From Candidatus Palauibacter poriticola (lineage in GTDB: Bacteria > Gemmatimonadota > Gemmatimonadetes > Palauibacterales > Palauibacteraceae), in contig JAAXHJ010000023.1 of the NCBI GenBank assembly GCA_012270965.1, positions 79,462 to 143,461 on the forward strand: a stretch of 64,000 bases of DNA, given 5' to 3'. A program made the position numbers and the translations under genes. Below the pieces are notes generated by a model that was not told the origin of the DNA, ran no database searches, and worked only from the letters and a program-made list of their open reading frames with translations. This document shows positions 36,918 through 48,434 of the stretch, in pieces; the first letter of the stretch is position 1; each line of letters opens with the position of its first letter.

Positions 36918-37610
36918 CTAGGGTTGATCCACTCCCTTGAGGATTAGGAGCGTGTCGATCGCCGAGGAGAAGGTGCCGAAGTCGGCGGCGCCCCGAAGGG
37001 CCACGCTGTCGCCCAAGATGAAATAGGGCGTACTCGAGATCCCGGCCGCAGTGACGCTGGTGTAGTCGCGGAGCACGAGCGGGGCCAGCGTGCTGTTGCG
37101 GAGGCAGGAGCCGAACGACTCGGGGTCGATGTCGATCTCCTCCGCGTACCCGACGAAGAGCGCATAGGGGTCGGCCGCGCCGCTCCATTCGTCCTGGCGC
37201 TCGAACAGGATGTCGTGCATGGGCCAGAACTTGCCCACGGCCCCCGCGCAGTAGGCCGCCTCCGTCGACACGAAGGCCTGCGGGTGTCCGGGGTTTGCGT
37301 AGGCGATCCACAGATAGCTGACCTTGCCCTCCGAGATGTAGGCGCTGTCGATCTTCGTCAGCGTCTGCTCGTGGAACTGCCGGCAGTAGGGGCACTGGAA
37401 GTCGGAGATCTCCACCACGCGCACGGGAGCCCCCTCCTCCCCCTTGATTCGGCTGCGGTCCGCGCGCTCGCGAGCCACTTGGGCATCGGGCGGCACGATG
37501 GAGCGTTCCTGCGTGCTCCCGGCCTCCGCCGCGCAGCCCGCCGCGAGAACGACGCCGGTGAGCAGGCCGGCAACGGGTACGAAGGGTCCGAAACGGAATC
37601 TGGCGTTCAA
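36918..37610 (-). CDS. DsbA-family thioredoxin-like lipoprotein
   Basis: 230 residues. The lipobox LAAGC (Cys26) places it in the envelope. The thioredoxin fold starts at APVRVVEISDFQCPYCRQFH, with the redox pair CPYC at 73-76, and has the cis-Pro loop ISSTPYFILG near 200. Two more Cys (AAYCAG and FGSCLR) flank the inserted helical domain. It should form, isomerise or reduce disulphides in exported proteins; the neighbouring secreted proteins with paired Cys are possible clients. ATG 37610 overlaps the decarboxylase stop by 4 nt. The gene converges on the CRTAC1-like gene, 30 bp away. Confidence 0.88.
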   Translation of the reverse strand: MNARFRFGPFVPVAGLLTGVVLAAGCAAEAGSTQERSIVPPDAQVARERADRSRIKGEEGAPVRVVEISDFQCPYCRQFHEQTLTKIDSAYISEGKVSYLWIAYANPGHPQAFVSTEAAYCAGAVGKFWPMHDILFERQDEWSGAADPYALFVGYAEEIDIDPESFGSCLRNSTLAPLVLRDYTSVTAAGISSTPYFILGDSVALRGAADFGTFSSAIDTLLILKGVDQP

Positions 37611-39085
37611 CCCGGTTCTCCCGGCGAAAGGTCGGCGGCGGCCCGATGGAGCGCCTCGAGCGCCTCGTCGAGGTGGCGCTCCTCCGTATGAACGCTCCCG
37701 ACGGACAACCGTACAGTATAACGTCCGTCGAGTTCGGTGTGCGAGAGAAACGAGCGACCAGCCGCGTTAACCCGGGCGAGAATCTTGCGGTTCCACCGCT
37801 CCTCGCCCGCCGGATCGCCCTCCCGTGCGGCGCGGAAACAGACGGTGCTGAAGGAGACCGGCGCCGCCAGTTCGAACACGCCGCCCTCGACGAGCCGGGC
37901 CGCGGCCGCTTCGGCCATCGCGATGTGACGGCGCATGGTCGCGGCCAGCCCGTCCGTCCCCGCGCACCGGAACAGCACCCACAGCTTGAGCCCGCGGAAG
38001 CGGCGGCCGAGTGCGAGGCCGATGTCCATGAGGTTCGTCTCGTCGTTACCGGATTCCAAGTAGATCGGCGTCAGCGCGAGCGACGCCCGGAAGGGGGCCG
38101 CGTCGCGATACAGCAGCACCGAACAGTCGAGCGACGTCCCGAGCCACTTGTGGGGATTGAGGACGATGGAGTCCGCCGCCTCCCAGCCGCGGAAGAGGGG
38201 CCGCTGCTCGGAGACCATGGCTGCCGGCCCCGCGTAGGCGGCATCCACGTGGAGCCAGACGCCGGTCCGTTTCGCGATGGCGGCGAGGGCGGGGACCGGG
38301 TCGATGCTCGCCGTGGAAGTCGTGCCGATCGTCGCGCACACCATGGCCGGCCGAATCCCCCTCTCGAGGTCGTCGGCGATGGCGGCCTCGAGCGCCTCCG
38401 GGCGCATCCGGAAGGCGGCGTCCGTCTCGATGCGCCGCACCGACCGTCGCCCCAATCCGGCCGCGATGGCCGATTTTTCCACCGAGGAGTGGGACTGCTC
38501 GGAAGTGTAGACTGCGAGAGCGGGCCCCCCGGGGAGCCCGTCGTCCCGCACCGCGACGCCCGCGCGCTCCCTGGCCGCGAGGAGGGCCGTGAAGGTGGAG
38601 GTCGACGCCGTGTCGAAGATTAGCCCCGAGAAGGTGTCCGGGAGGCCGACGGCCTGCCGCAGCCAGTCGACCGCGGTGCGCTCGACTTCGGTCGCGGCGG
38701 GCGAGGTTCGCCACAACATTGCGTTCACGCCGACGGCGGCAACCAGGAGTTCCGCCACGATGCTCGGTGCCCGCGTGGAACTTGAGAAATAGGCGAGGAA
38801 GCCCGGATGATTCCAGTGCGTGAGACCGGAGACGATGTGCTCGTCGAAGTCGGCCAGCACGCGCTCGAAGGGTTCCGGGGTGCGCGGCGGCGCCTCCGCG
38901 AGCGCGCGTCGCACGTCGCCCGGCGCGAGATCGGGGAAGACCGGCCGCTGCTCGACGCGCGCTCGGTAGTCGATGGTCCATTCCGCCGCGCGCCCGAGTG
39001 CCGCGCCGAGGGTCTCCCCGCTCCAGTCCCCGGCGGTCGCGGCCGCCGGGGACTCGCGGTTCGGTCGATCGATGTGGTCCGGCAT
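37607..39085 (-). CDS. Group II PLP-dependent (aromatic) amino acid decarboxylase
   Basis: 492 residues. The fold-type I motifs are complete: SGLTHWNHPGFLAYF near the N-terminus, WLHVDAAYAGPAAM with the PLP-binding Asp, and the Schiff-base Lys in IVLNPHKWLGTSLDCS (about residue 310). This is the layout of aromatic-L-amino-acid and tyrosine decarboxylases, which yield amines such as tryptamine. Substrate choice cannot be read directly. ATG 39085 has an excellent CAGGAG site 5 nt upstream. It is cotranscribed with the DsbA-like lipoprotein. Its start codon overlaps that of the divergent helicase gene within CATG. Confidence 0.92.
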   Translation of the reverse strand: MPDHIDRPNRESPAAATAGDWSGETLGAALGRAAEWTIDYRARVEQRPVFPDLAPGDVRRALAEAPPRTPEPFERVLADFDEHIVSGLTHWNHPGFLAYFSSSTRAPSIVAELLVAAVGVNAMLWRTSPAATEVERTAVDWLRQAVGLPDTFSGLIFDTASTSTFTALLAARERAGVAVRDDGLPGGPALAVYTSEQSHSSVEKSAIAAGLGRRSVRRIETDAAFRMRPEALEAAIADDLERGIRPAMVCATIGTTSTASIDPVPALAAIAKRTGVWLHVDAAYAGPAAMVSEQRPLFRGWEAADSIVLNPHKWLGTSLDCSVLLYRDAAPFRASLALTPIYLESGNDETNLMDIGLALGRRFRGLKLWVLFRCAGTDGLAATMRRHIAMAEAAAARLVEGGVFELAAPVSFSTVCFRAAREGDPAGEERWNRKILARVNAAGRSFLSHTELDGRYTVRLSVGSVHTEERHLDEALEALHRAAADLSPGEPG

Positions 39086-41147
39086 GCAAACTCCTGACTC
39101 CTTGGAGTCACTGTGGCCTCTGTTGGCCGATCTCCGCGTCGCGATCGAGGACGAAATCGAGGCGATCGCGGCCGACCTCTCCCGTCGCCGTCTGGACCGG
39201 CCGATTGCCGTGCTCTCCGGACGCCTGCGGGGAGAGGCGGGGATCGGCTATCGCTACGCCTTCCAGATCGCGGGGGAAACATACGACATTCGTGCGGACG
39301 ACCGCGTACGCATCCACGCGGGCGGGCGGGACGCGCTCGGGGTCGTTCACCGCTTCGACCGCACGCTTGGGCTCCTACAGGCCGTGAGCCCGGAGTGGCT
39401 CGGCGAACGCCTCGATGGCTCCGAACTCGAGTTCGACCCCACGTGGCTCCTGCGCGAACTCTCCGCGCGGCTGGCCGAGGTCGGGCAGGATCCGGCGGAC
39501 TTCTTCCCGGGCACGGTGCTCGAAGCGTTCGGCCGGCTGCCGCCGCGCCTCGGCCGGGGGACTCTCCGGCTCGACTCATCCGCCGACCTGAACGAGCCGC
39601 AGCGCGACGCCCTGGAACGGGTGTTGGGAAGCAGCGTCCAACTCGTCTGGGGTCCGCCCGGCACCGGCAAGTCCCGCCTCGTGGCGCGCGCGGCGCTGGA
39701 ACTTGCGCTCCGCGGGCGGGTGCTCGTCGCGGCGACGACCAACGGAGCCGTGGACGAGATCGCGCGCCGTCTCGCCTCCATCGCCGAGCCGGCCGCGCTC
39801 GACCGCGACCGGATCATCCGCGTGGGGTTCGACTTGGGTGCCGCGCCCGATTCGCGCATCGACTTGGGCGCGGCGCTAGCGCGGCGGATCGAGGGCGGTG
39901 CCGGCGGCGTGGACCGCACCCTCGCGGACCTAGAGGTCCAGCTGCGGGCTCGCCCGCCGGCCGGAAGGCGCGAGGGTGCCCCGGCCCCGAATCCCTACGC
40001 CCGGGCTGGACGCCTGCGCTCGCTCGCCCGTTCACGCAACGATGCGGAGGCCGCGCGCCAGGTGGGCCGCGTCATGCTCGAGATCGCGCGCCAGGCGGAA
40101 CTCGTACTGAAAGAGGCGGATATCGTCCTCACCACCTTCGCCCGACTCGCGATTCGGGAGGAACTCCGCGCGCTGAGATTCGAGTCCCTGCTGATCGACG
40201 AGGCGAGCACGGCGCCGCTCCCCCAGGTGGCGCTCGCCGCCTCGAGGGTCGCGGGCCCCGCGATCGCCGTGGGCGATTTCCAGCAGCTTCCCCCGGTCGT
40301 GTCGAGCAAGACCCCGGCGGCCGCGCGCTGGCTGCGCACGGACCTGTTCAGGGAAGCCGGCGTGGTGGACGGGGCGCGGGTCGTGGGCGGGGTGGACCCC
40401 GTGGGCGGGGTGCCGGCCGTGGGCGCGGCGGAGGCCGTGAGCGCAGCCCGGGCCATGGACGGAGTGGGGGCCGGAAGCGCGCTGCCTTCTCCGAATGACG
40501 GGCTATGCGCCATGCTCGATCTCCAATACCGGATGGCACCCGACATTCGCGAGCTGGTGAGCGAGTTCTTCTACGGCGGACGGCTCCGGGACGCGCCCGA
40601 GATCGCAGAGCGCGTGACGCAGCGGGCCGCCCTCTCGGTGCTCGACACGAGCGGTCTCGATCCGCGGGTCGAACGCGTGGACGGATCGCGGCGGAACCGC
40701 GCCCACGCCCACGCCGTGGCGGACTTCCTCGGCGGCGCGGCACAGGATGGGCTCGACGACATCGCGGTGGTCTCGCCCTACCGCGCCCAGACTCGGCACC
40801 TGAGCGATCTCATCCGGCGTCGACTCGGTCGCGCTGCGCCCGCCGGTCTCGACGTGAGCACGATCCATCGCTTCCAGGGGCGCGAGAAGCGCCTCGTCGT
40901 CATCGACACCGTGGATGCGCCTCCCGGCCGCAGTTGGTTCCTCGATGAGCGGCGGAACCGAGATCTCCCCCGGCTGCTCAACGTCGCCCTCTCCCGGGCG
41001 CGCGAGCAGCTCGTCATCGTCGCCACCGTCGCCGGCCTGCGGCGGACACTGCCTCGCGGAGCCCTCCTCAACCGTCTCCTCGCCCACGTGGAGCGGTCCG
41101 GCTCGCGCATCGACGCCGCCCCCGCGGATCTCTGGCGCGGCCGCTGA
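39084..41147 (+). CDS. Superfamily 1 helicase/ATPase, Upf1/Dna2-like
   Basis: 687 residues. An N-terminal beta domain (about 30-120) precedes LNEPQRDALERVLGSSVQLV and Walker A GPPGTGKS (about 188-195). Walker B is LIDEASTA, motif III is VGDFQQLPP, motif IV LDLQYRMAP, motif V STIHRFQGREKRLVVID and motif VI LNVALSRAREQLVIVA, the AAA_11/AAA_12 arrangement. It should unwind or translocate on nucleic acid; DNA or RNA preference is unknown. A six-unit 18-nt repeat (40365-40472) lengthens the loop before motif IV. ATG 39084 has no clear ribosome site; TTG 39102 is the alternative. Confidence 0.9.
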   Translation: MQTPDSLESLWPLLADLRVAIEDEIEAIAADLSRRRLDRPIAVLSGRLRGEAGIGYRYAFQIAGETYDIRADDRVRIHAGGRDALGVVHRFDRTLGLLQAVSPEWLGERLDGSELEFDPTWLLRELSARLAEVGQDPADFFPGTVLEAFGRLPPRLGRGTLRLDSSADLNEPQRDALERVLGSSVQLVWGPPGTGKSRLVARAALELALRGRVLVAATTNGAVDEIARRLASIAEPAALDRDRIIRVGFDLGAAPDSRIDLGAALARRIEGGAGGVDRTLADLEVQLRARPPAGRREGAPAPNPYARAGRLRSLARSRNDAEAARQVGRVMLEIARQAELVLKEADIVLTTFARLAIREELRALRFESLLIDEASTAPLPQVALAASRVAGPAIAVGDFQQLPPVVSSKTPAAARWLRTDLFREAGVVDGARVVGGVDPVGGVPAVGAAEAVSAARAMDGVGAGSALPSPNDGLCAMLDLQYRMAPDIRELVSEFFYGGRLRDAPEIAERVTQRAALSVLDTSGLDPRVERVDGSRRNRAHAHAVADFLGGAAQDGLDDIAVVSPYRAQTRHLSDLIRRRLGRAAPAGLDVSTIHRFQGREKRLVVIDTVDAPPGRSWFLDERRNRDLPRLLNVALSRAREQLVIVATVAGLRRTLPRGALLNRLLAHVERSGSRIDAAPADLWRGR
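40365..40472. repeat. Six 18-nt in-frame repeats inside the helicase gene
   Basis: Six units of the form GTGG(A/G)CGGGG(C/T)GxxxxCC encode hexapeptides such as VGGVDP and VGGVPA. The first four are close to one another; the last two have drifted. They insert 36 residues between motifs III and IV, a loop at the surface in related helicases. Confidence 0.85.
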
Positions 41148-41192
41148 CCCCGGGCCGCTCACCGGAGTGCCGCAGAAAATCCGTTTTTCTCT

Positions 41193-41264
41193 CGCGAATC
41201 CCTACGGAAAATGGCCATCCCATCAACGAATTTTTGAAAAAAACACGATTCGCGACCATTCGCG
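41193..41264. promoter_or_regulatory. ATTCGCG operator-like heptamers upstream of the RNA promoter
   Basis: ATTCGCG occurs at 41248-41254 and 41258-41264, one helical turn apart and ending 1 bp before the -35 box, and once inverted as CGCGAAT at 41193-41199. The surrounding DNA (41165-41290) is AT-rich for this genome. An activator or repressor binding here would control the RNA downstream. Confidence 0.4.
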
Positions 41265-41265
41265 G

Positions 41266-41294
41266 TTGACGGCCGAAAAAAATCATTTTAGAAT
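41266..41294 (+). promoter_or_regulatory. Sigma-70-type promoter of the structured RNA
   Basis: -35 TTGACG (41266-41271), a 17-bp spacer and -10 TAGAAT (41289-41294), so 5 of 6 bases match consensus in each box. Transcription should start near 41301. No protein-coding frame follows until dtd about 700 bp downstream. Confidence 0.7.
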
Positions 41295-41300
41295 CAGGGC

Positions 41301-41594
41301 GTGCTAAGGGAGGCGGCACCGACCGACCGGAGGTCGAGGCCGATGACCGCACCGCGAGTTGCCCGACGCGAGATCGCGAAACCGGGGCGCAAGTCCCGGG
41401 CCTGAGGGAGCGGAGTTCCGGCAACGGAACGAGGCGACCGAGGGAAGAGGGATCGAGCACAGCTGGTCGGGCGGACGGTACCAAGGCTCGCGAGGTTCTG
41501 GAAGACCGCGCAAGCTACCAGGGCCGGGCGGTAGTTGGCCGTAAACAAGCCTCTTGGCTCAGCCCCTGACACCTTCGGGTGGACAGGGGCTGAG
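41301..41594 (+). ncRNA. Candidate structured non-coding RNA, about 290 nt, family unknown
   Basis: It runs from the predicted start to a strong hairpin, with no coding frame. Two hairpins are capped by GNRA (GCAA) tetraloops: 41382-41399 (7 bp, CCGGGGC/GTCCCGG) and 41415-41430 (6 bp, GTTCCG/CGGAAC). The 3' hairpin has 11 bp, then 4 bp closed by UUCG. Paired GNRA loops are typical of large folded RNAs and ribozymes. I find no RNase P P4 elements, tmRNA tag or acceptor end, SRP Alu/apical sequence or 6S bubble. No IscB, TnpB or reverse transcriptase is near, so a transposon-linked RNA is not supported. It could be a new regulatory RNA or a divergent known one. Confidence 0.55.
41558..41594 (+). 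terminator. UUCG-capped hairpin ending the candidate RNA
   Basis: CTCAGCCCCTG (41558-41568) pairs perfectly with CAGGGGCTGAG (41584-41594). Inside, CACC/GGTG is closed by TTCG, with a small asymmetric bulge. The following DNA is only moderately T-rich, so it may be a 3' stabilising element rather than a classical intrinsic terminator. Confidence 0.6.
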
Positions 41595-41667
41595 TGCATC
41601 TATCCATGTTCCTCGCTATGCCCGGACTCCCCCGGTTTGTGTGCCCGGGTCGCGGGGATCGCGCAGG

Positions 41668-41739
41668 CGTGTTGGCCGGGCCCCGGGTGTTGGGCCGGGC
41701 CCCCGCGTGTCGGCCGAGCCCCGTCTGTCGGCGGGCCCC
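41668..41739. repeat. Four degenerate 17-19-nt tandem units, intergenic
   Basis: Units of 17, 19, 19 and 17 nt share the pattern GTGT(T/C)GGCCGGGCCCC; the third has CGAGCCCC and the last reads GTCTGTCGGCGGGCCCC. They are palindromic in part (GGGCCC). They follow the RNA hairpin by about 70 bp, and the DNA between shows nothing else. Confidence 0.65.
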
Positions 41740-41845
41740 GTAATGATGATCGACGAGCGTCCCCATGTTGAATTCCTTCACACGCTCCTTCGGATCGGAC
41801 TTCCGGTTGGCGCATGATGCGTCAATTTTTTCCAAAAAAATGATG

Positions 41846-41983
41846 TCCACAAGTTGTGGATATTCTGTCCAAATAACGTGGATTTCGGAGTTGGCCGGCA
41901 ACTCGGCCGGAGGCGGAGTCGCCTGGGACCGAGTGCTGTCGCATCTTCCTGGCCGTTGGCGGCTTTCCACGTTATGTGGAAAA
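41846..41983. promoter_or_regulatory. DnaA-box-like palindromes upstream of dtd; operator or origin element
   Basis: TCCACAAGTTGTGGA (41846-41860) is a perfect palindrome; its right half read on the minus strand matches TTATCCACA at 8 of 9 positions. TGTGGAAAA (41975-41983) is an exact TTWTNCACA box on the minus strand and lies in the hairpin TTTCCAC/GTGGAAA (41964-41982). CCAnATAACGTGGA occurs at 41869-41882 and inverted at 41966-41979. An AT tract (41823-41840) precedes them. This could bind DnaA or a local repressor of the dtd operon. Confidence 0.4.
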
Positions 41984-42009
41984 CCGGTTTGCCGAACATC
42001 AACCGGGCG

Positions 42010-42450
42010 GTGCGATTGCGAGTCGTGATTCAGCGAGTCAGCCGGGCGCGCGTCCGGGTCGGAGGCGAGGTCGTGGGCACGATCGGCCGCGGGCTCGTCG
42101 TGCTGGTGGGTTTCGCGCCGGACGACTCCGAGGCGGCGATGGTTTGGATGGCGAGTAGGCTCTGGGACCTGCGTCTGTTCGCGGACGAGGAGGGCCGCAT
42201 GAACCGCTCGGCACGGGAGGTCGGGGCGGCGCTCATGGTCGTGTCTCAATTCACCCTGTACGGGGATGCGTCGCGTGGACGGCGCCCCTCCTTCACGCGG
42301 GCGGCGCGGTCCGACGCGGCTCGGGCGCTTTACGACCGCTTCGTCGAGCTGTGCCGGCAGGGGGGTGAGGTCGCGGAGGGAGAGTTCGGGGCGATGATGG
42401 GGGTGGAACTGGTCAACGACGGTCCCGTCACCCTGCAACTGGAGCGGTGA
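42010..42450 (+). CDS. dtd: D-aminoacyl-tRNA deacylase
   Basis: 146 residues from GTG 42010; TTG 42016 would give the textbook start MRVVIQRVS. The enzyme removes D-amino acids (and Gly mischarged on tRNA-Ala) from tRNAs. Signatures are complete: VVIQRVSRARVRV, the substrate-binding VSQFTLYGD with RGRRPSF after it, and the Gly-cis-Pro region MGVELVNDGPVTLQLE at the end. It starts about 27 bp after the DnaA-box-like palindromes, and its stop overlaps the next start as GTGA, so it heads a four-gene run. Confidence 0.93.
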   Translation: MRLRVVIQRVSRARVRVGGEVVGTIGRGLVVLVGFAPDDSEAAMVWMASRLWDLRLFADEEGRMNRSAREVGAALMVVSQFTLYGDASRGRRPSFTRAARSDAARALYDRFVELCRQGGEVAEGEFGAMMGVELVNDGPVTLQLER

Positions 42451-42932
42451 GATTGCGTCCGCTGCGGATCGGAGTCATCGGCTCGGGACGGGCGGCTCCG
42501 GAGGAGGCGGGTCTGGCCCACGCCGTGGGAGCGGCTCTCGCCCGCGCCGGGGCCATCGTCGTTTGCGGCGGGTTGGGTGGGGTCATGCGGGCGGCGGCCG
42601 ACGGAGCCTCCTCGGAGGGGGGGATCGCGGTGGGAATCCTTCCCGGAGGCGACCCGCACGCCGCGGCGGACGGGGTCGCCATCCCGATCCCGACCGGGCT
42701 GGGCGAGGCGCGCAACGTCGTCGTCGCGCGGGCGTCGGAGGCGGTGGTCGCGATCGCCGGCGAGTGGGGCACGCTCAGCGAGGCGGCCTTCTGCCGGAAG
42801 TTCGGGATTCCCGTGATTGGGCTCGCTTCATCGCTGCCGGAGGATGTGGTTGACGAGACGGCCGAGGACGCGGCGGCGGCGGCGGCGAGGGCCCTCGAAC
42901 TTGCGCAATCTCGGCGGAGCGTGGACGAATGA
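42447..42932 (+). CDS. TIGR00725/LOG-like Rossmann nucleotide-binding protein
   Basis: 161 residues from GTG 42447. Its pattern is that of the SLOG superfamily: LRIGVIGSGRAAPEE at the start, VVCGGLGGVMRAAADGA as the phosphate loop, GILPGGDPHAAA, and GEWGTLSEAAF near residue 112. Close relatives are annotated TIGR00725; LOG-type relatives release cytokinin bases from nucleotides, but this subgroup's substrate is not established. Translation is coupled to dtd upstream and to the zinc-ribbon gene downstream by 4-nt overlaps. Confidence 0.85.
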   Translation: MRLRPLRIGVIGSGRAAPEEAGLAHAVGAALARAGAIVVCGGLGGVMRAAADGASSEGGIAVGILPGGDPHAAADGVAIPIPTGLGEARNVVVARASEAVVAIAGEWGTLSEAAFCRKFGIPVIGLASSLPEDVVDETAEDAAAAAARALELAQSRRSVDE

Positions 42933-43315
42933 CGGGATTCGTGCTCTTCGGCAGCATCCTCGTGGTGCTGCTGGTCACGATCATCTGGGCCGCGATCCGG
43001 TCCGGCGAGGACACGGGCGCGTCGCTGGACGCCGCGGAGCGCCGCGACGCCGCCATCGAGGCGCTGCGGGATCTCGAGCTGGAATACCGGACGGGCAAGC
43101 TCCGCGAAGAGGAGTACCGATCCACGCGGGCCCGTCTGGAGCGGACGGCCATCGGCGCCCGGGACGCCGCCGCCCAGGGGCGCGCGGAGGATCCGGCCCC
43201 AGCGCCCGGGAAGGCCCCGGCGCCCCCCCGGTCGTGCCCGGAATGCGCCACCGCGCTGACCGGCGACGAAGCCTTCTGTCCCGCCTGCGGAATCGGCCTC
43301 CCGCCGCGCGCCTGA
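42929..43315 (+). CDS. Membrane-anchored zinc-ribbon protein
   Basis: 128 residues. A single N-terminal transmembrane segment (about 4-22, FVLFGSILVVLLVTIIW) is followed by a charged helix (AIEALRDLELEYRTGKLREE then EYRSTRARLE) of the kind seen in CcmI-like or SHOCT-type proteins. A Pro/Ala linker leads to a C-terminal zinc ribbon with CPEC and CPAC pairs 12 residues apart. It may anchor a cytoplasmic complex at the membrane. It is coupled to the previous gene by an ATGA overlap. The family is not recognised with certainty. Confidence 0.75.
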   Translation: MTGFVLFGSILVVLLVTIIWAAIRSGEDTGASLDAAERRDAAIEALRDLELEYRTGKLREEEYRSTRARLERTAIGARDAAAQGRAEDPAPAPGKAPAPPRSCPECATALTGDEAFCPACGIGLPPRA

Positions 43316-43418
43316 TGACGACGCGATGATCTTGTCCCGGACCATCATGAGGGCACACCTTGGGATGCGCAGGGAGCGGATGCGCGGAGATCCGTTCCGA
43401 GACAGGAGGCTTGTCGTT

Positions 43419-43592
43419 GTGATCAGCGTAGATACGGTTGCCGTGATCCTCACCGTCGCCCTTGCGGTCGGCGGGGCCTACGTCGGGCTTTCGCGGAATT
43501 TGGCGCAACTCGGGGAGCGGCTGGCGAAGGTCGAGGGGATCATCGAGGGCTGGCTCGACCCGCCGCCGAAGACGACTGGCGACCGATCCTAG
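43419..43592 (+). CDS. Small single-span membrane protein
   Basis: 57 residues from GTG 43419, chosen because AGGAGG (43404-43409) lies 9 nt upstream; longer in-frame starts give Arg-rich, unlikely N-termini. Residues about 6-24 are hydrophobic (TVAVILTVALAVGGAYVGL), followed by an amphipathic helix NLAQLGERLAKVEGIIEGWL. The layout resembles small XhlA-like or DUF-type membrane proteins with a short coiled coil. The role is unknown. Confidence 0.6.
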   Translation: MISVDTVAVILTVALAVGGAYVGLSRNLAQLGERLAKVEGIIEGWLDPPPKTTGDRS

Positions 43593-43605
43593 CTCTCCTC
43601 CCCGG

Positions 43606-43690
43606 CGAACGGGCGGCGTCCAGCTCGGGCTCTCCCCCGCGCGCTCGCGAATGGGTGGCATCCAACTCGGGCTTTCCTCCGGGGCGCTCG
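43606..43690. repeat. Two tandem 42-43-nt units upstream of recA
   Basis: Copies at 43606-43647 and 43648-43690 share CGAA(C/T)GGG(C/T)GGC(G/A)TCCA and CTCGGGCT(C/T)TCC. In one frame they read GGVQLGLSP and GGIQLGLSS, but no start or stop makes a gene. The rest of the 43593-43909 gap holds only the recA promoter candidate. Confidence 0.7.
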
Positions 43691-43794
43691 CGCCCGGGCG
43701 GTAAGCCCCGCGGGCATTTGATCCGCCGTTGAGACGTGGCGCCATCATGATGGGGGAACGACCCGGTACCAGGGTCGGACGAAACCCGAAGAAA

Positions 43795-43823
43795 TTGCGA
43801 AAGGTCATCCGGCGTGGTATTGT
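43795..43823 (+). promoter_or_regulatory. Candidate recA promoter
   Basis: TTGCGA, 17 bp and TATTGT, 87 bp before the recA start. No LexA-type palindrome that I can recognise overlaps it, so damage control of recA is not evident from the sequence. Confidence 0.45.
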
Positions 43824-43909
43824 CAACCTCCGCCGCGGCGGGTGATCGACTTCCCGTCATCGGCCTTCGTGGACCCCTCGGGCGGGAGAGCGCGTCGGGA
43901 GAGCGTGAA

Positions 43910-45010
43910 ATGGGTGTGGAGATGAACCAGGAACAGAAGAAGGCGTTGTCCGTGGCCCTCAACCAGATCGAACGGTCCCACGGCAAGGGGGCGATCATGC
44001 GGCTCGGGACGGAGGGTGCCCGGGTCCGAATCCCCGCCATTTCGACCGGGGCGCTCAACTTGGACCACAGCACCGGGATCGGCGGCATCCCGAGGTCGCG
44101 CGTCACCGAGATCTTCGGTCCCGAGTCCTCCGGCAAGACCACCCTCACCCTCCACGTCATCGCCAATGCGCAGAAGGACGGCGGCGTCGCGGCGTTCATC
44201 GATGCCGAGCACGCGCTCGACGTCGGGTATGCGCAGCGACTGGGCGTCGACATCGAGAACCTGCTCGTGTCGCAGCCGGACACGGGTGAGCAGGCGCTCG
44301 AGATCGCCGGAGTGCTCGTCCGGTCCGGCGCTCTCGACGTCATCGTGGTGGACTCGGTGGCCGCGCTCGTGCCGCGGGCCGAGATCGAGGGCGAGATGGG
44401 GGATTCGCACGTCGGCCTTCAGGCGCGGTTGATGTCGCAGGCCCTCCGCAAGCTGACGGGCGCGATCGGGCGCTCCAACACCGCCGTGATCTTCACGAAC
44501 CAGATTCGCGAGAAGATCGGCGTCATGTACGGGAACCCGGAGACCACGACGGGAGGCCGGGCGCTGAAGTTCTATTCCTCGCTTCGACTCGACATCCGCC
44601 GGATCGCCTCCATCAAGGAGGGGAGCAACCTGGTCGGCAGCCGGACGCGCGTGAAGGTGGTCAAGAACAAGTGCGCACCGCCGTTCAAGCAGGCCGAATT
44701 CGACATCATGTTCAACCAGGGCGTGAGCCGGGAGGGTCTGCTTGTGGACATGGGCGAAAGCATCGGCATCGTGCGTCGCGCGGGCGCTTGGTACTCGTAC
44801 GGCGGAGATGTCCGGCTCGGGCAGGGGCGCGAGAATTCGAAGGCCTTCCTGCGCGAGAATCCGGACATCGCGGAGGAGATCGAAGCCCGAATCCGCGATG
44901 AACTCGGGATGACGATTCCGGACCCGGATGCGGCCGAGGGTGCGGCGGAAGCGGGCGCGGAAAAGTCGAAGAACTCCCGGCCGCCCTCGAAGCAGGCCAC
45001 CGGGCGCTGA
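43910..45010 (+). CDS. recA: Recombinase RecA
   Basis: 366 residues from ATG 43910; an in-frame ATG at 43922 ([10 protein letters not shown]) is possible, but GGAG sits too close to it. The ATP site is GPESSGKTT (70-78), Walker B is [14 protein letters not shown], loop 1 is [20 protein letters not shown] and loop 2 follows [20 protein letters not shown]. All catalytic and DNA-binding elements are present. The acidic/Ser-rich C-terminus ([17 protein letters not shown]) is short. It drives strand exchange and the SOS response. The stop shares bases with the presumed recX start. Confidence 0.98.
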
Positions 45011-45684
45011 GTCCCGGCCGCAACCGCCACACAACCGGGGAGATCACCGGCCTCCTCCCCGTCAAGCGCCGCTCCGGCTGGACCGAGGTCCAGTTGGACG
45101 GCGCTTCCCTCTGTCGGCTTCCCGACGAAGAAGTGTGCCGACTTCGGCTCGACGTCGGACTCCGGCTCTCATCTGCGGACGTCGACGCCGTCCGGGCCGC
45201 GGGCGGGCGCGCCGAAGCGCTGTTCGTCGGGCTGCGCTACCTTTCCGTGCGCCCGAGGAGTCGCCGGGAAACGGAGCGCCGGCTGCGGCGGGCGCGGATC
45301 GACCGGGCGGCGATTCAACACGCGCTGGAACGCCTGGCGGCGCTGGGGTATCTCGACGATGCGCAGTTCGCCGCCAGCTTTGCGCGGGATCGCATCCGGC
45401 TCCGGCCGTGTGGCACCCGTCGCCTGCAATCCGACCTTCTCGCTCGGGGCGTGTCGCGGGAGGATGCGGATCGCGGCATCCGCGAGGCGATGGCGGAGGA
45501 GGGCGCGACGGAGGAGGCACTGCTCGAGCGCGTGGCGACGGCGCGGACGCGGAGGCTGGCCGGGGCGGACCCGTCGAAGGCGCGGCGACGGCTGTTCGAC
45601 TATCTGGCTAGGCGCGGGTTCGCCGCGAGTCGCATTCGCGCCTGGATCGAGGTCAACTGGCAGGCTGAGGCGGATACACGATGA
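45007..45684 (+). CDS. recX: RecA regulator RecX, apparent CTG start
   Basis: 225 residues if translation begins at CTG 45007, where CTGA overlaps the recA stop. The family's N-terminal motif is visible from there ([14 protein letters not shown], then WTEVQLDG), but no ATG, GTG or TTG precedes it. The first standard start in frame, TTG 45094, would remove that motif. Three RecX three-helix repeats follow: [40 protein letters not shown] and [20 protein letters not shown]. RecX caps RecA filaments and limits recombination. It is coupled to alaS by an ATGA overlap, giving a recA-recX-alaS run as in many bacteria. Confidence 0.87.
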
Positions 45685-48434
45685 CGGCGGACGAACTCCG
45701 GCGGAGCTTCATCTCCTACTTCGAACGGCAGGGGCACGACCATCGGCCCAGCGGCCCGCTCGTCCCCGCGGATGACCCGACCCTCATGTTCACCAATGCC
45801 GGGATGGTGCAGTTCAAGGGCATCTTCACGGGAAAGACCGAGTGCCCGATCCCCCCGCGCGCGGTCACGTCCCAGAAGTGCCTCCGCGTCAGCGGCAAGC
45901 ACAACGACCTCGAGGAAGTGGGGCGGACGGCGCGCCATCACACGTTTTTTGAGATGCTCGGGAACTTCTCCTTCGGCGACTACTTCAAGCGCGAGGCGAT
46001 CGACTTCGCCTGGGAGTGGGTGACCGGAGACCTCGGTTTGGAGCCCGACCGTCTGTGGGCCACCGTGCACCACGACGACGATGACGCGTTCGACCTCTGG
46101 CTGGAACGAACCTCGATCCCGGAATCGCGCATCCGGCGCATGGGGGACAAGGACAACTTCTGGCAGATGGGCGACACGGGTCCGTGCGGTCCCTGCTCGG
46201 AGCTGCACTACGACCTGAGGGCGGTACGCGATGACCGCATCACCGATGCCCAGTTCGAGGCGGCCGGCGAGGCGGACCGGATCATCGAGTTCTGGAATCT
46301 CGTCTTCATGCAGTTCGACCGCGAGCCCGACGGCACGGATACGCCGCTCCCCGCGCCCTCGATCGACACGGGTGCCGGACTCGAGCGGATCGCGGCGCTG
46401 CTGCAGGGGGTGGGAACGAACTACCACACGGACCTCTTCCTCCCGATCATCGCGGCGGCGGAGGACGGACTCGGGATCGAGTACTCGCGGGCGCCGGAAG
46501 ACTGGGACGACGGCGTCGCCTTCCGCGTATTGGCGGATCACGCCCGGGCCGTCGCCTTCCTGCTCGCCGATGGCGTCTTCCCCTCGAACGAGAAGCGGGG
46601 GTACGTGCTGCGCCGGATCCTGCGCCGGGCGGTGCGGCACTACTGGCTTCTCGGCCGCCGCGACCCGCTCCTGCACGATCTCGTGGGCGTGGTGGCGGAT
46701 CGCATGTCGGCCACCTTCCCCGAGCTGGAGGCGAGGCGGGAGCACCTGCTCTCCACGACGCGAGCGGAGGAGGAACTCTTTCTGTCCACCATTGAGGGCG
46801 GCATGCGGGAGATCGACCGTGCGATCCCGGAGGGCGGCTCGGGCACGGTCGCAGGCGATGTCGCGTTCAAGCTCAAGGACACGTACGGCATTCCCGAGGA
46901 CCTGACCGGCCTCATCGCCCGCGAGCGCGGCTACAGCGTCGACTGGAAGGGCTTTGACGAGGCCTTGGAGCGCCAGCGCGCCCGCTCCCGGGGCGTCGAG
47001 GTACCGGCCATGACCATGGACCCAGTGTCAACGGCGTCACTCGAGGTGGGCACCATCGGAGGTGGGTCTAGGGGCGCGCTCACGGTCATCCCGTCCAACG
47101 GGGAGGCGAAGCAGGAGTTTGTGGGCTACACGGACCTCGAAACCGAAACGGGGTGTCGGCGACGGTCCGTCGACGGTCGGCACTGGTTCCTGCTCGAGCG
47201 GAATCCCTTCTACCTGGAGAGCGGGGGTCAGGTCTCCGATACGGGGCGCGTTACCGGCCGCGTCGCGGGGGACGATTGGGCGGTCGACATCTCCGAGGTG
47301 TGGGGTGCCGACGGGCGGACCGTGGTCGCGGGAGCGCTGGCCGAGGGTTCGCTTCCCGAGGCCGACGACTGGGTCGCGGACTCCGTGTGCGCGCGGGTGG
47401 CTCCGTCGCGGCGCGAGACGGAGCGGAATCACACGGCGACGCACCTCCTGCACGCCGCGCTCCGCAACCGGTTGGGCGAGCACGTGCAGCAGGCCGGATC
47501 GCTCGTTGCACCGGACCGGCTTCGCTTCGATTTCAGCCACAGGGGTCCGCTGACGCTGGAGGAGCGGGCGGACATCGAAGCGGAGGTCACGGAGGCGATA
47601 CTCGGAAACCACGATGTCGACGCGTCGCAGCGAGGTTACGACGAGGCGATCGCGGCCGGGGCCATGGCCCTGTTCGGGGAGAAGTACGGGAACATCGTGC
47701 GGGTGATCGAAGTGCCGGAACTCAGCCTGGAGCTGTGCGGCGGCACGCACGTCCGCACGACGGGTCAGATCGGGACATTCCGGATTGTGTCCGAGACGGG
47801 TGTCGCGGCGGGCATCCGGCGCATCGAAGCGGTGACGGGACAGGAGGCCTATCGACGCGAACTGGCGCGTGACCGGCTCCTCGCGGAACTGGCCGCGCGG
47901 TTGCGCTGCGCGCCGGCGGATCTGGCGGCCCGCATGGAGCGACTCCTCGAGGAGCGCGACGCGCTCGCCGAAGAGGTTCGGGGACGGAGAGGAGATGCCG
48001 CGGAGCGACAGTTGGAAACGCTTCTCGCGGGCGCGGGTGCGGGCGCGGGCTCGGGTGCGGGCGCGGCGGGCGCGCAGGACGCGAACGGGGCCCGCTTCGT
48101 GTCGGGGTGCCTGGAGGTGCCTGCGGGTACGGACCTCGGAGCGCTCGCCGATCGCCTGCGCGGCGGGATGGGGTCGGGCGCCGCCGTCGTTCACGTCGTG
48201 TTCGCGGACGAGGACCGCCACGCGTTCATCTCGGTCGTGTCGGACGACCTCATCCGGCTGGGCCTAAGGGCGGGAGACCTCGTCCGCGTTTCGAGCCGGG
48301 CGACGGGTTCCGGCGGCGGCGGCGGCCCGCGCTTCGCGCAGGGGGGTGTGGGCGATCCGTCGCGAACGGAGGACGGGCTCGGAGCGGCCCGGGCTTGGGC
48401 TTCCGAACGGGTGCCCGCCCTGTCGGGTGGCTGA
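45681..48434 (+). CDS. alaS: Alanyl-tRNA synthetase
   Basis: 917 residues, slightly longer than the usual 870-880. The class II catalytic core has MFTNAGMVQFKGIFTG and HNDLEEVGRTARHHTFFEML, the latter holding motif 2. The editing domain has HTATHLLHAALRNRLGEHVQ and CGGTHVRTTGQIG, whose His and Cys residues bind zinc. The C-terminal C-Ala domain ends AAVVHVVFADEDRHAF and then GSGGGGGPRFAQGG. A Gly/Ala repeat (nt 48026-48074) lies just before C-Ala. It charges tRNA-Ala and clears Ser and Gly; dtd upstream has a related proofreading role. Confidence 0.98.
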   Translation: MTADELRRSFISYFERQGHDHRPSGPLVPADDPTLMFTNAGMVQFKGIFTGKTECPIPPRAVTSQKCLRVSGKHNDLEEVGRTARHHTFFEMLGNFSFGDYFKREAIDFAWEWVTGDLGLEPDRLWATVHHDDDDAFDLWLERTSIPESRIRRMGDKDNFWQMGDTGPCGPCSELHYDLRAVRDDRITDAQFEAAGEADRIIEFWNLVFMQFDREPDGTDTPLPAPSIDTGAGLERIAALLQGVGTNYHTDLFLPIIAAAEDGLGIEYSRAPEDWDDGVAFRVLADHARAVAFLLADGVFPSNEKRGYVLRRILRRAVRHYWLLGRRDPLLHDLVGVVADRMSATFPELEARREHLLSTTRAEEELFLSTIEGGMREIDRAIPEGGSGTVAGDVAFKLKDTYGIPEDLTGLIARERGYSVDWKGFDEALERQRARSRGVEVPAMTMDPVSTASLEVGTIGGGSRGALTVIPSNGEAKQEFVGYTDLETETGCRRRSVDGRHWFLLERNPFYLESGGQVSDTGRVTGRVAGDDWAVDISEVWGADGRTVVAGALAEGSLPEADDWVADSVCARVAPSRRETERNHTATHLLHAALRNRLGEHVQQAGSLVAPDRLRFDFSHRGPLTLEERADIEAEVTEAILGNHDVDASQRGYDEAIAAGAMALFGEKYGNIVRVIEVPELSLELCGGTHVRTTGQIGTFRIVSETGVAAGIRRIEAVTGQEAYRRELARDRLLAELAARLRCAPADLAARMERLLEERDALAEEVRGRRGDAAERQLETLLAGAGAGAGSGAGAAGAQDANGARFVSGCLEVPAGTDLGALADRLRGGMGSGAAVVHVVFADEDRHAFISVVSDDLIRLGLRAGDLVRVSSRATGSGGGGGPRFAQGGVGDPSRTEDGLGAARAWASERVPALSGG
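48026..48074. repeat. In-frame Gly/Ala hexanucleotide-type repeat in alaS
   Basis: Degenerate GCGGGCGCGGGT-like units encode an AGAGAGAGSGAGAAGA stretch that lengthens the linker before the C-Ala domain. Confidence 0.65.

Follow-up and report, generated by a model that had tools for sequence, protein, structure and literature searches.

OLE RNA and other orphan structured RNAs of bacteria are structured, conserved, and limited to particular lineages, and their precise function is open (PMC11332333, PMC12265935, PMC12054373); OLE RNA is approximately 600 nt long and found mostly in Bacillota (PMC12054373). No description of the RNA reported here was found in the literature searched, which left subscription papers and preprints mostly outside its coverage, and PMC10469786 held no mention of non-coding or small RNA under the terms searched, with riboswitch appearing only in the reference list. 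Compared with OLE RNA, our RNA is likewise strongly structured, conserved, and lineage-limited, but it is approximately 300 nt long, found in 1 family, and without an Rfam match. 6S RNA, which is duplicated in some bacterial lineages, is alike in being a stand-alone bacterial RNA with its own promoter, whereas it forms a rod with a central bubble and the RNA here has a multi-helix fold with a likely pseudoknot and a length of 250-309 nt among its members. GGA in a hairpin loop is the motif of CsrB/RsmZ-type RNAs and is found here too, but probably engaged in internal pairing. A short run in the RNA resembles what we take to be the UACCAGG...GGAAGG of bacterial small SRP RNA, but no SRP (RF00169) match was obtained here at E <= 10.

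The window, by which we mean the whole 64-kb stretch of DNA analyzed (G000:C36:79462-143461), belongs to a 3.56-Mb assembly of 99 contigs. Searching Rfam 15 (4227 families) at gathering score gave no match at the locus and only a tRNA in the window, where ARAGORN identified only tRNA-Gln; at E <= 10, the locus had 3 unrelated matches, all far under their cut-offs, and at E <= 1, there were none in 6 loci of divergent members. The candidate for an undescribed element, put forward in an earlier sequence-only reading of this DNA, stands, and the RNA family appears to be new in having no Rfam match. That reading had also seen no hallmarks of RNase P, tmRNA, SRP, 6S, or omega RNA, and for the locus itself we agree. 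The genome's only RNase P RNA match (RF00010, G000:C22:73153-73532) and only small SRP RNA match (RF00169, G000:C36:158503-158598) lie elsewhere, as does a tmRNA over cut-off (RF00023, G000:C31:64994-65364). RF00013 (6S RNA) had no match at the locus, at 6 member loci, or in the genome; over the class, it matched 3 of 198 genomes, 2 of them over the cut-off, and 6S RNA is either absent from those 198 genomes or too divergent to be seen. For omega RNA or another transposon guide RNA, the argument comes from gene linkage, with no IscB/TnpB-type nuclease among 9 ORFs at 36918-48434, which Pfam assigned to a helicase, dtd, recA, recX, alaS, and others. A CsrB/RsmZ-type sponge was likewise rejected: the sole CsrA (PF02599) match among 43 genomes of the order is in G004 (G004:C208:5869-6024), not in the window's genome, and a CsrA partner is unlikely because the other 42 genomes have no match.

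The features of the locus are given below. Helix counts are from the fixed alignment A3 (26 members, aligned by sequence only and scored with the structure written on member L017), the initial helix search being biased by stems chosen for complementarity.

38973-41147, plus strand: upstream neighbor, helicase-like AAA_11/AAA_12 protein (Pfam)
41230-41243, plus strand: AT-rich block 5' of the promoter, ATTTTTGAAAAAAA, which we take to be UP-element-like
41266-41271 (TTGACG) and 41289-41294 (TAGAAT), plus strand: sigma-70-type promoter TTGACG-17-TAGAAT, 10 of 12 consensus matches
41300-41601, plus strand: RNA gene, the conserved span from the CGTGC start to the TGCATC tail, with putative transcript ends
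41301-41305 with 41315-41319, plus strand: helix H1, loop AAGGGAGGC, 130 of 130 cells paired, partly by construction, as an H1-like pattern had set each member's 5' end
41309-41314, plus strand: putative pseudoknot 5' strand GGAGGC in the H1 loop, complementary to 41549-41554
41320-41323 with 41333-41336, plus strand: helix H2, 103 of 104 cells paired (99.0%)
41338-41350, plus strand: 5' strand of junction helix P3 (MFE fold), partner within 41527-41540 in the window's genus
41352-41358, plus strand: 5' strand of helix P4a, partner 41487-41493, 176 of 180 cells paired (97.8%)
41361-41367, plus strand: 5' strand of helix P4b, partner 41466-41472, 154 of 154 cells paired, 6 pairs counted
41382-41399, plus strand: GCAA hairpin 1, CCGGGGC(GCAA)GTCCCGG, 7 bp, tip of arm P4
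41415-41430, plus strand: GCAA hairpin 2, GTTCCG(GCAA)CGGAAC, 6 bp, tip of arm P4
41477-41482, plus strand: conserved unpaired GGUACC, 3' side, between P4b and P4a
41495-41501 with 41518-41524, plus strand: hairpin P5, loop with invariant GCGC
41549-41554, plus strand: putative pseudoknot 3' strand GCCTCT, just before the terminal hairpin
41557-41595, plus strand: UUCG-capped terminal hairpin, 12 bp, internal loop, 4 bp
41595-41600, plus strand: conserved tail UGCAUC or UACAUC, in 31 of 33 members, a tail-containing pattern (matching once in each) having set the 3' end in 19 of the 33
42022-42450, plus strand: downstream neighbor dtd, D-Tyr-tRNA deacylase (Pfam on ORF 41854-42450), its start presumably near 42022

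The near-consensus promoter claimed from the letters is borne out. The promoter search returned 1 site in the region, where shuffled versions of it averaged 0.2 (sd 0.4), and TTGAC, TTGCA, or TTGCG lies at the same distance in 33 members. By eye, -10-like boxes were seen across the 33 members, and T-run or A-run blocks resembling 41230-41243 lie at about equal distance in all of them. The putative 5' end of the RNA was placed from the position of this promoter.

The stretch 41299-41610 (312 nt) folds better than 100 of 100 dinucleotide shuffles (z -3.8), the 302-nt core reached z -5.6 (60 shuffles), and 9 members folded singly gave z -2.6 to -5.6 (60 shuffles each). In A3, the 50-pair structure is paired in 93.3% of 1285 cells against 35.3-46.7% when slid, a comparison in which a structure written on one member wins partly for that reason alone. 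Both sides changed in 21 of the 50 pairs, against a mean of 14.7 in column shuffles (0 of 500 reaching 21) and 13 pairs when the structure was slid by +1; the covariation score was 0.350 against 0.215 +/- 0.008 in shuffles (0 of 500 as high), and further pair types showed no excess (53 vs 51.3, with 136 of 500 shuffles as high). In all, 4 of the 5 measures of compensatory change lay beyond all 500 column shuffles, which leave the relatedness of the members in place, and the fifth did not. The cells of H1, H2, P4a, and P4b comprised 497 Watson-Crick, 60 G-U, 1 A-C, and 4 other combinations, and the plus strand is taken as the RNA because G-U outnumbers A-C by 60 to 1 in these 4 best helices; over all helices except the pseudoknot, the picture is less clean (997 Watson-Crick, 100 G-U, 22 A-C, and 36 other). 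The folded RNA claimed earlier, for which covariation in relatives had been proposed as a check, is upheld by the fold statistic and by compensatory changes beyond the controls at a conserved locus. We consider it very probable that 41300-41601 on the plus strand is a real non-coding RNA gene.

The predicted core runs from a 5' hairpin and a small hairpin through a long arm to a hairpin with a conserved loop and the terminal hairpin. Within the arm, 5 of 7 pairs of P4a changed on both sides, with the outermost pair being a mismatch in the window's own copy, and the further helix P4c is weakly supported across groups (73 of 104 cells paired). The GG and the first C of GGUACC are invariant columns of A3. 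Sequences and pairs of P3 differ between genera; of 12 hand-listed members, 10 pair fully and 2 with 7 of 8 pairs, which is weaker evidence as these pairs were picked for complementarity. P5 is paired in 80.8% of cells, with 8 rows shifted by one base. In the terminal hairpin, which is long and close to a palindrome, 95.6% of cells are paired and both sides changed in 6 of its 16 pairs; the UUCG-capped hairpin described earlier is in place, with 16 pairs and not the 15 then counted. The 2 GCAA-capped hairpins, of 7 and 6 bp, are also present, and the compensatory changes named beforehand as support for their stems were found in L012 (GTTTCG/CGAAAC vs GTTCCG/CGGAAC) and L015 (TCGAAGC/GCTTCGA), but both hairpins are absent from other genera. 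As drawn in our fold, they are a genus-level decoration of the tip of 1 arm, and we place them outside the conserved core because of that absence.

Complementarity between the H1 loop and the strand that precedes the terminal hairpin was seen in 33 of 33 members (6 of 6 positions in 30, and 5 of 6 in L015, L016, and L086), with the partner strand being the best of 10 positions per sequence, and the loop contains GGAGG in 30 of the 33. In the best register, an A-U pair is replaced by C-G in 13 close g1 members and a G-C pair by A-U in L091 and L093. Within A3, 78.5% of pseudoknot cells are paired with 0 pairs changed on both sides, the figures there for both P5 and the pseudoknot being affected by register shifts. 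Duplex energies of 13 representatives averaged -8.7 kcal/mol, compared with -4.5 for shuffled strands, whose 200 means went no lower than -6.2, and in 9 of these 13, the RNA's own strand beat all other 13-mers tested in the same RNA; specificity was weaker in L082 (8 of 183 as good or better) and in 3 g5/g4 members (21-35 of 155-164). A pseudoknot between the H1 loop and the 3' strand is likely on this evidence.

The terminal hairpin had been called a terminator. Its conservation holds, but no U-run follows it in the window, and only 1 of 33 members has one (U5), whereas the tmRNA of G006 has a hairpin and then U7. The 2 members without the conserved tail have UUUUUC and GUAUGC in its place. 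The 3' end may be formed by a weak terminator or by processing. Behind the 16S rRNA in L094 (G327) and an atpC-like gene in L125 (G192), GC-rich hairpins with a poor U-run were also seen, and terminators of the phylum may often be without a clean U-run. The same reading had reported no coding frame. In this GC-rich DNA, ORFs of 61 aa (plus strand) and 101 aa (minus strand) do exist wholly within the RNA, but there is no sign that either is conserved: the plus-strand ORFs vary in start, length, and sequence over 16 members, and the 101-aa frame is broken in a relative with 96% identity. Coding on either strand was rejected.

We searched for the RNA in other genomes by several routes. DNA similarity matched 21 of 60 genomes, including the window's own and some short chance matches, and a pattern of the terminal hairpin had exact matches in 12 contigs from a collection of named genomes, every one of them labeled Gemmatimonadetes, Gemmatimonadales, Gemmatimonadota, or named Ca. 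species (Palauibacter rhopaloidicola, P. denitrificans, and Benthicola marisminoris). Covariance model R1 (3' half of the RNA, 16 sequences) matched 28 of 394 genomes of the class, comprising 27 in the family and 1 chance match. Model R2 (20 sequences) matched 27 of 43 genomes of the order, being 27 of 35 in the family and 0 of 8 outside it, and 24 of 395 genomes drawn from the phylum, being 22 in the family and 2 weak matches; searches of more than 40 genomes used stricter filters, and distant relatives may be missed by them. Members used to build the models match by construction, whereas G017, G024, G029-G034, and the second copies were found by R1 independently. By genus, the RNA was identified in 15 of 17 genomes of g1, 6 of 6 of g6, 4 of 6 of g5, 1 of 2 each of g2 and g4, and 0 of 1 each of g3 and g7. 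G019, in which the contig ends inside the promoter and 5' hairpin, probably has it too. The RNA is not essential, because it is absent from the near-complete genomes G014, G018, and G022 (93-95% complete).

Weak matches outside the family look like chance and were set aside: that in G327 is, by eye, a 16S rRNA 3' end followed by a GC hairpin, that in G192 is a hairpin behind what by eye is atpC, and that in G373 covers only model positions 108-138, within the terminal hairpin. Three viral contigs carried the 5'-hairpin pattern, and the 2 examined are near-identical and without the rest of the RNA. Weak minus-strand matches to the terminal hairpin in a few genomes arise because it is nearly palindromic.

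The gene neighborhood seen in the window (copy A) is retained in relatives: among 16 copy-A loci whose flanks were examined, the helicase gene precedes the RNA on the same strand in all 16, ending approximately 1.4 kb before the RNA in G031, and dtd follows the RNA on that strand in 15; in the sixteenth, L096, the sequence ends 498 bases past the RNA, before any dtd. Homologues of recX and alaS lie further downstream in some copy-A loci. Among genomes without the RNA, G014, G018, G022, and G023 have the helicase followed by dtd, with the genes nearly touching in G022 and G023, G013 and G039 have a helicase match without a dtd match in the flanking stretch examined, and in G020, the contig ends. 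A second RNA (copy B) was identified in all 6 g6 genomes. None of these 6 loci has the helicase or dtd, and copy-B ORFs had no match at 1e-10 to ORFs near copy A in the window and L044. Homologous genes lie downstream of copy B in the 6 genomes; of the 4 scanned, G021 and G028 have a JAB-domain match that exceeds the cut-off, G026 has one that falls short of it, and G032 has none, and the upstream gene is an M1 peptidase in G021, the 1 genome scanned. A tree built from 26 RNAs separates copy A from copy B as 2 clades (support 0.97 and 0.99), and the branching order of the 6 g6 genomes is identical in both, as expected from 1 duplication with both copies retained.

Some further observations concern the surroundings of the RNA. 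The contig G000:C48 carries a partial second copy (L002:888-1234, 347 bases, 97.7% identical to window 41048-41392) that covers the helicase end, the promoter, and the first 103 nt of the RNA without difference and then passes into other sequence with a 187-aa ORF; it may represent a duplication supplying this ORF with a promoter and leader, or sequence assembled from another strain. Window 41840-41990, which lies between the RNA and dtd, is AT-rich with the inverted repeat TCCACAAGTTGTGGA, and TGTGGAAAA at 41975 is the sole match in the 64-kb window to a relaxed pattern that we take to be that of a DnaA box, with no strict box of the TTATCCACA type in the window. In the g6 copy A of L017, an extra stretch before the pairing strand (L017:1487-1497) contains GGGUCGAAUCC, which in our view resembles a tRNA T-loop.

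We favor, as the probable explanation, a gene for a stand-alone, trans-acting structured RNA of approximately 300 nt. The RNA would be transcribed from its own promoter and fold compactly, with the 5' hairpin loop pairing to the strand just before the terminal hairpin; the unpaired conserved blocks (GGUACC in the arm, the P5 loop, and the junctions) would then offer a binding surface for a protein partner, with which the RNA may work as an RNP regulator or scaffold. Action in trans is the firmer part of this proposal, and we hold it with good confidence because the RNA has its own promoter, occupies 2 sites without shared neighbors, and is missing from some versions of 1 site. A cis-acting, riboswitch-like leader of dtd at copy A and of the JAB-like gene at copy B, with the terminal hairpin as attenuator, is unlikely. 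Both copies do lie upstream of a gene on the same strand, which is compatible with a cis role, and the proposed pairing strand abuts the terminal hairpin like a possible expression platform. However, the genes downstream of the 2 copies are unrelated, the next called ORF begins approximately 260 to 690 bp beyond the RNA end (by mechanical ORF starts), and 32 of 33 members have no U-run behind the hairpin; as a main role, a leader of dtd was rejected on the different neighbor of copy B. It is hardly credible that the locus works at the level of DNA, or is a chance structure of GC-rich sequence, with no functional RNA: the terminal hairpin is near-palindromic and chance hairpins are common at this GC content, but the preponderance of G-U over A-C, the both-side pair changes across genera, and the conserved promoter speak against it.

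How the trans-acting RNA would work is a more tentative matter. The unpaired blocks conserved between covarying helices point to a specific partner, and that the RNA is a protein-binding regulator, as against a ribozyme or base-pairing RNA, is possible at somewhat short of even chances. The same blocks would suit a ribozyme, and the H1 loop resembles a Shine-Dalgarno sequence, so that GGAGGA/UCCUCC might mimic Shine-Dalgarno and anti-Shine-Dalgarno sequences and touch ribosomes or mRNA starts; in L091 and L093, however, the loop is GGAGAA and its partner UUCUC, a change that follows internal pairing and not the 16S rRNA, and a ribozyme or base-pairing regulator is improbable. More doubtful still is a reading as 6S RNA, either in divergent form or as a lineage-specific substitute that binds RNA polymerase. 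The window genome lacks a 6S match while having its RNase P, tmRNA, and SRP RNAs elsewhere, and the 2 copies in 1 genus recall the 6S duplications mentioned above, but no 6S model matched at the locus or the 6 member loci, the fold lacks the shape of a long rod opened by a bubble at its center, and the rarity of RF00013 over the class means that an undetected 6S RNA is not special to this family.

We consider quite unlikely a new class of housekeeping-like RNA with a conserved catalytic or polymerase- or ribosome-binding core that would replace a global regulator such as 6S RNA in this marine family, a reading that includes the strong promoter and the single duplication with both copies retained. 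The biological interest lies in an RNA family without an Rfam match, in uncultured bacteria from sponges and marine samples, most of whose fold is fixed computationally by compensatory change. RNAs that bind a specific partner or act as catalysts usually show such conserved unpaired blocks between covarying helices, and with coordinates, promoter, fold, RNA-free loci, and a 2-copy genus in hand, its function would be directly testable.
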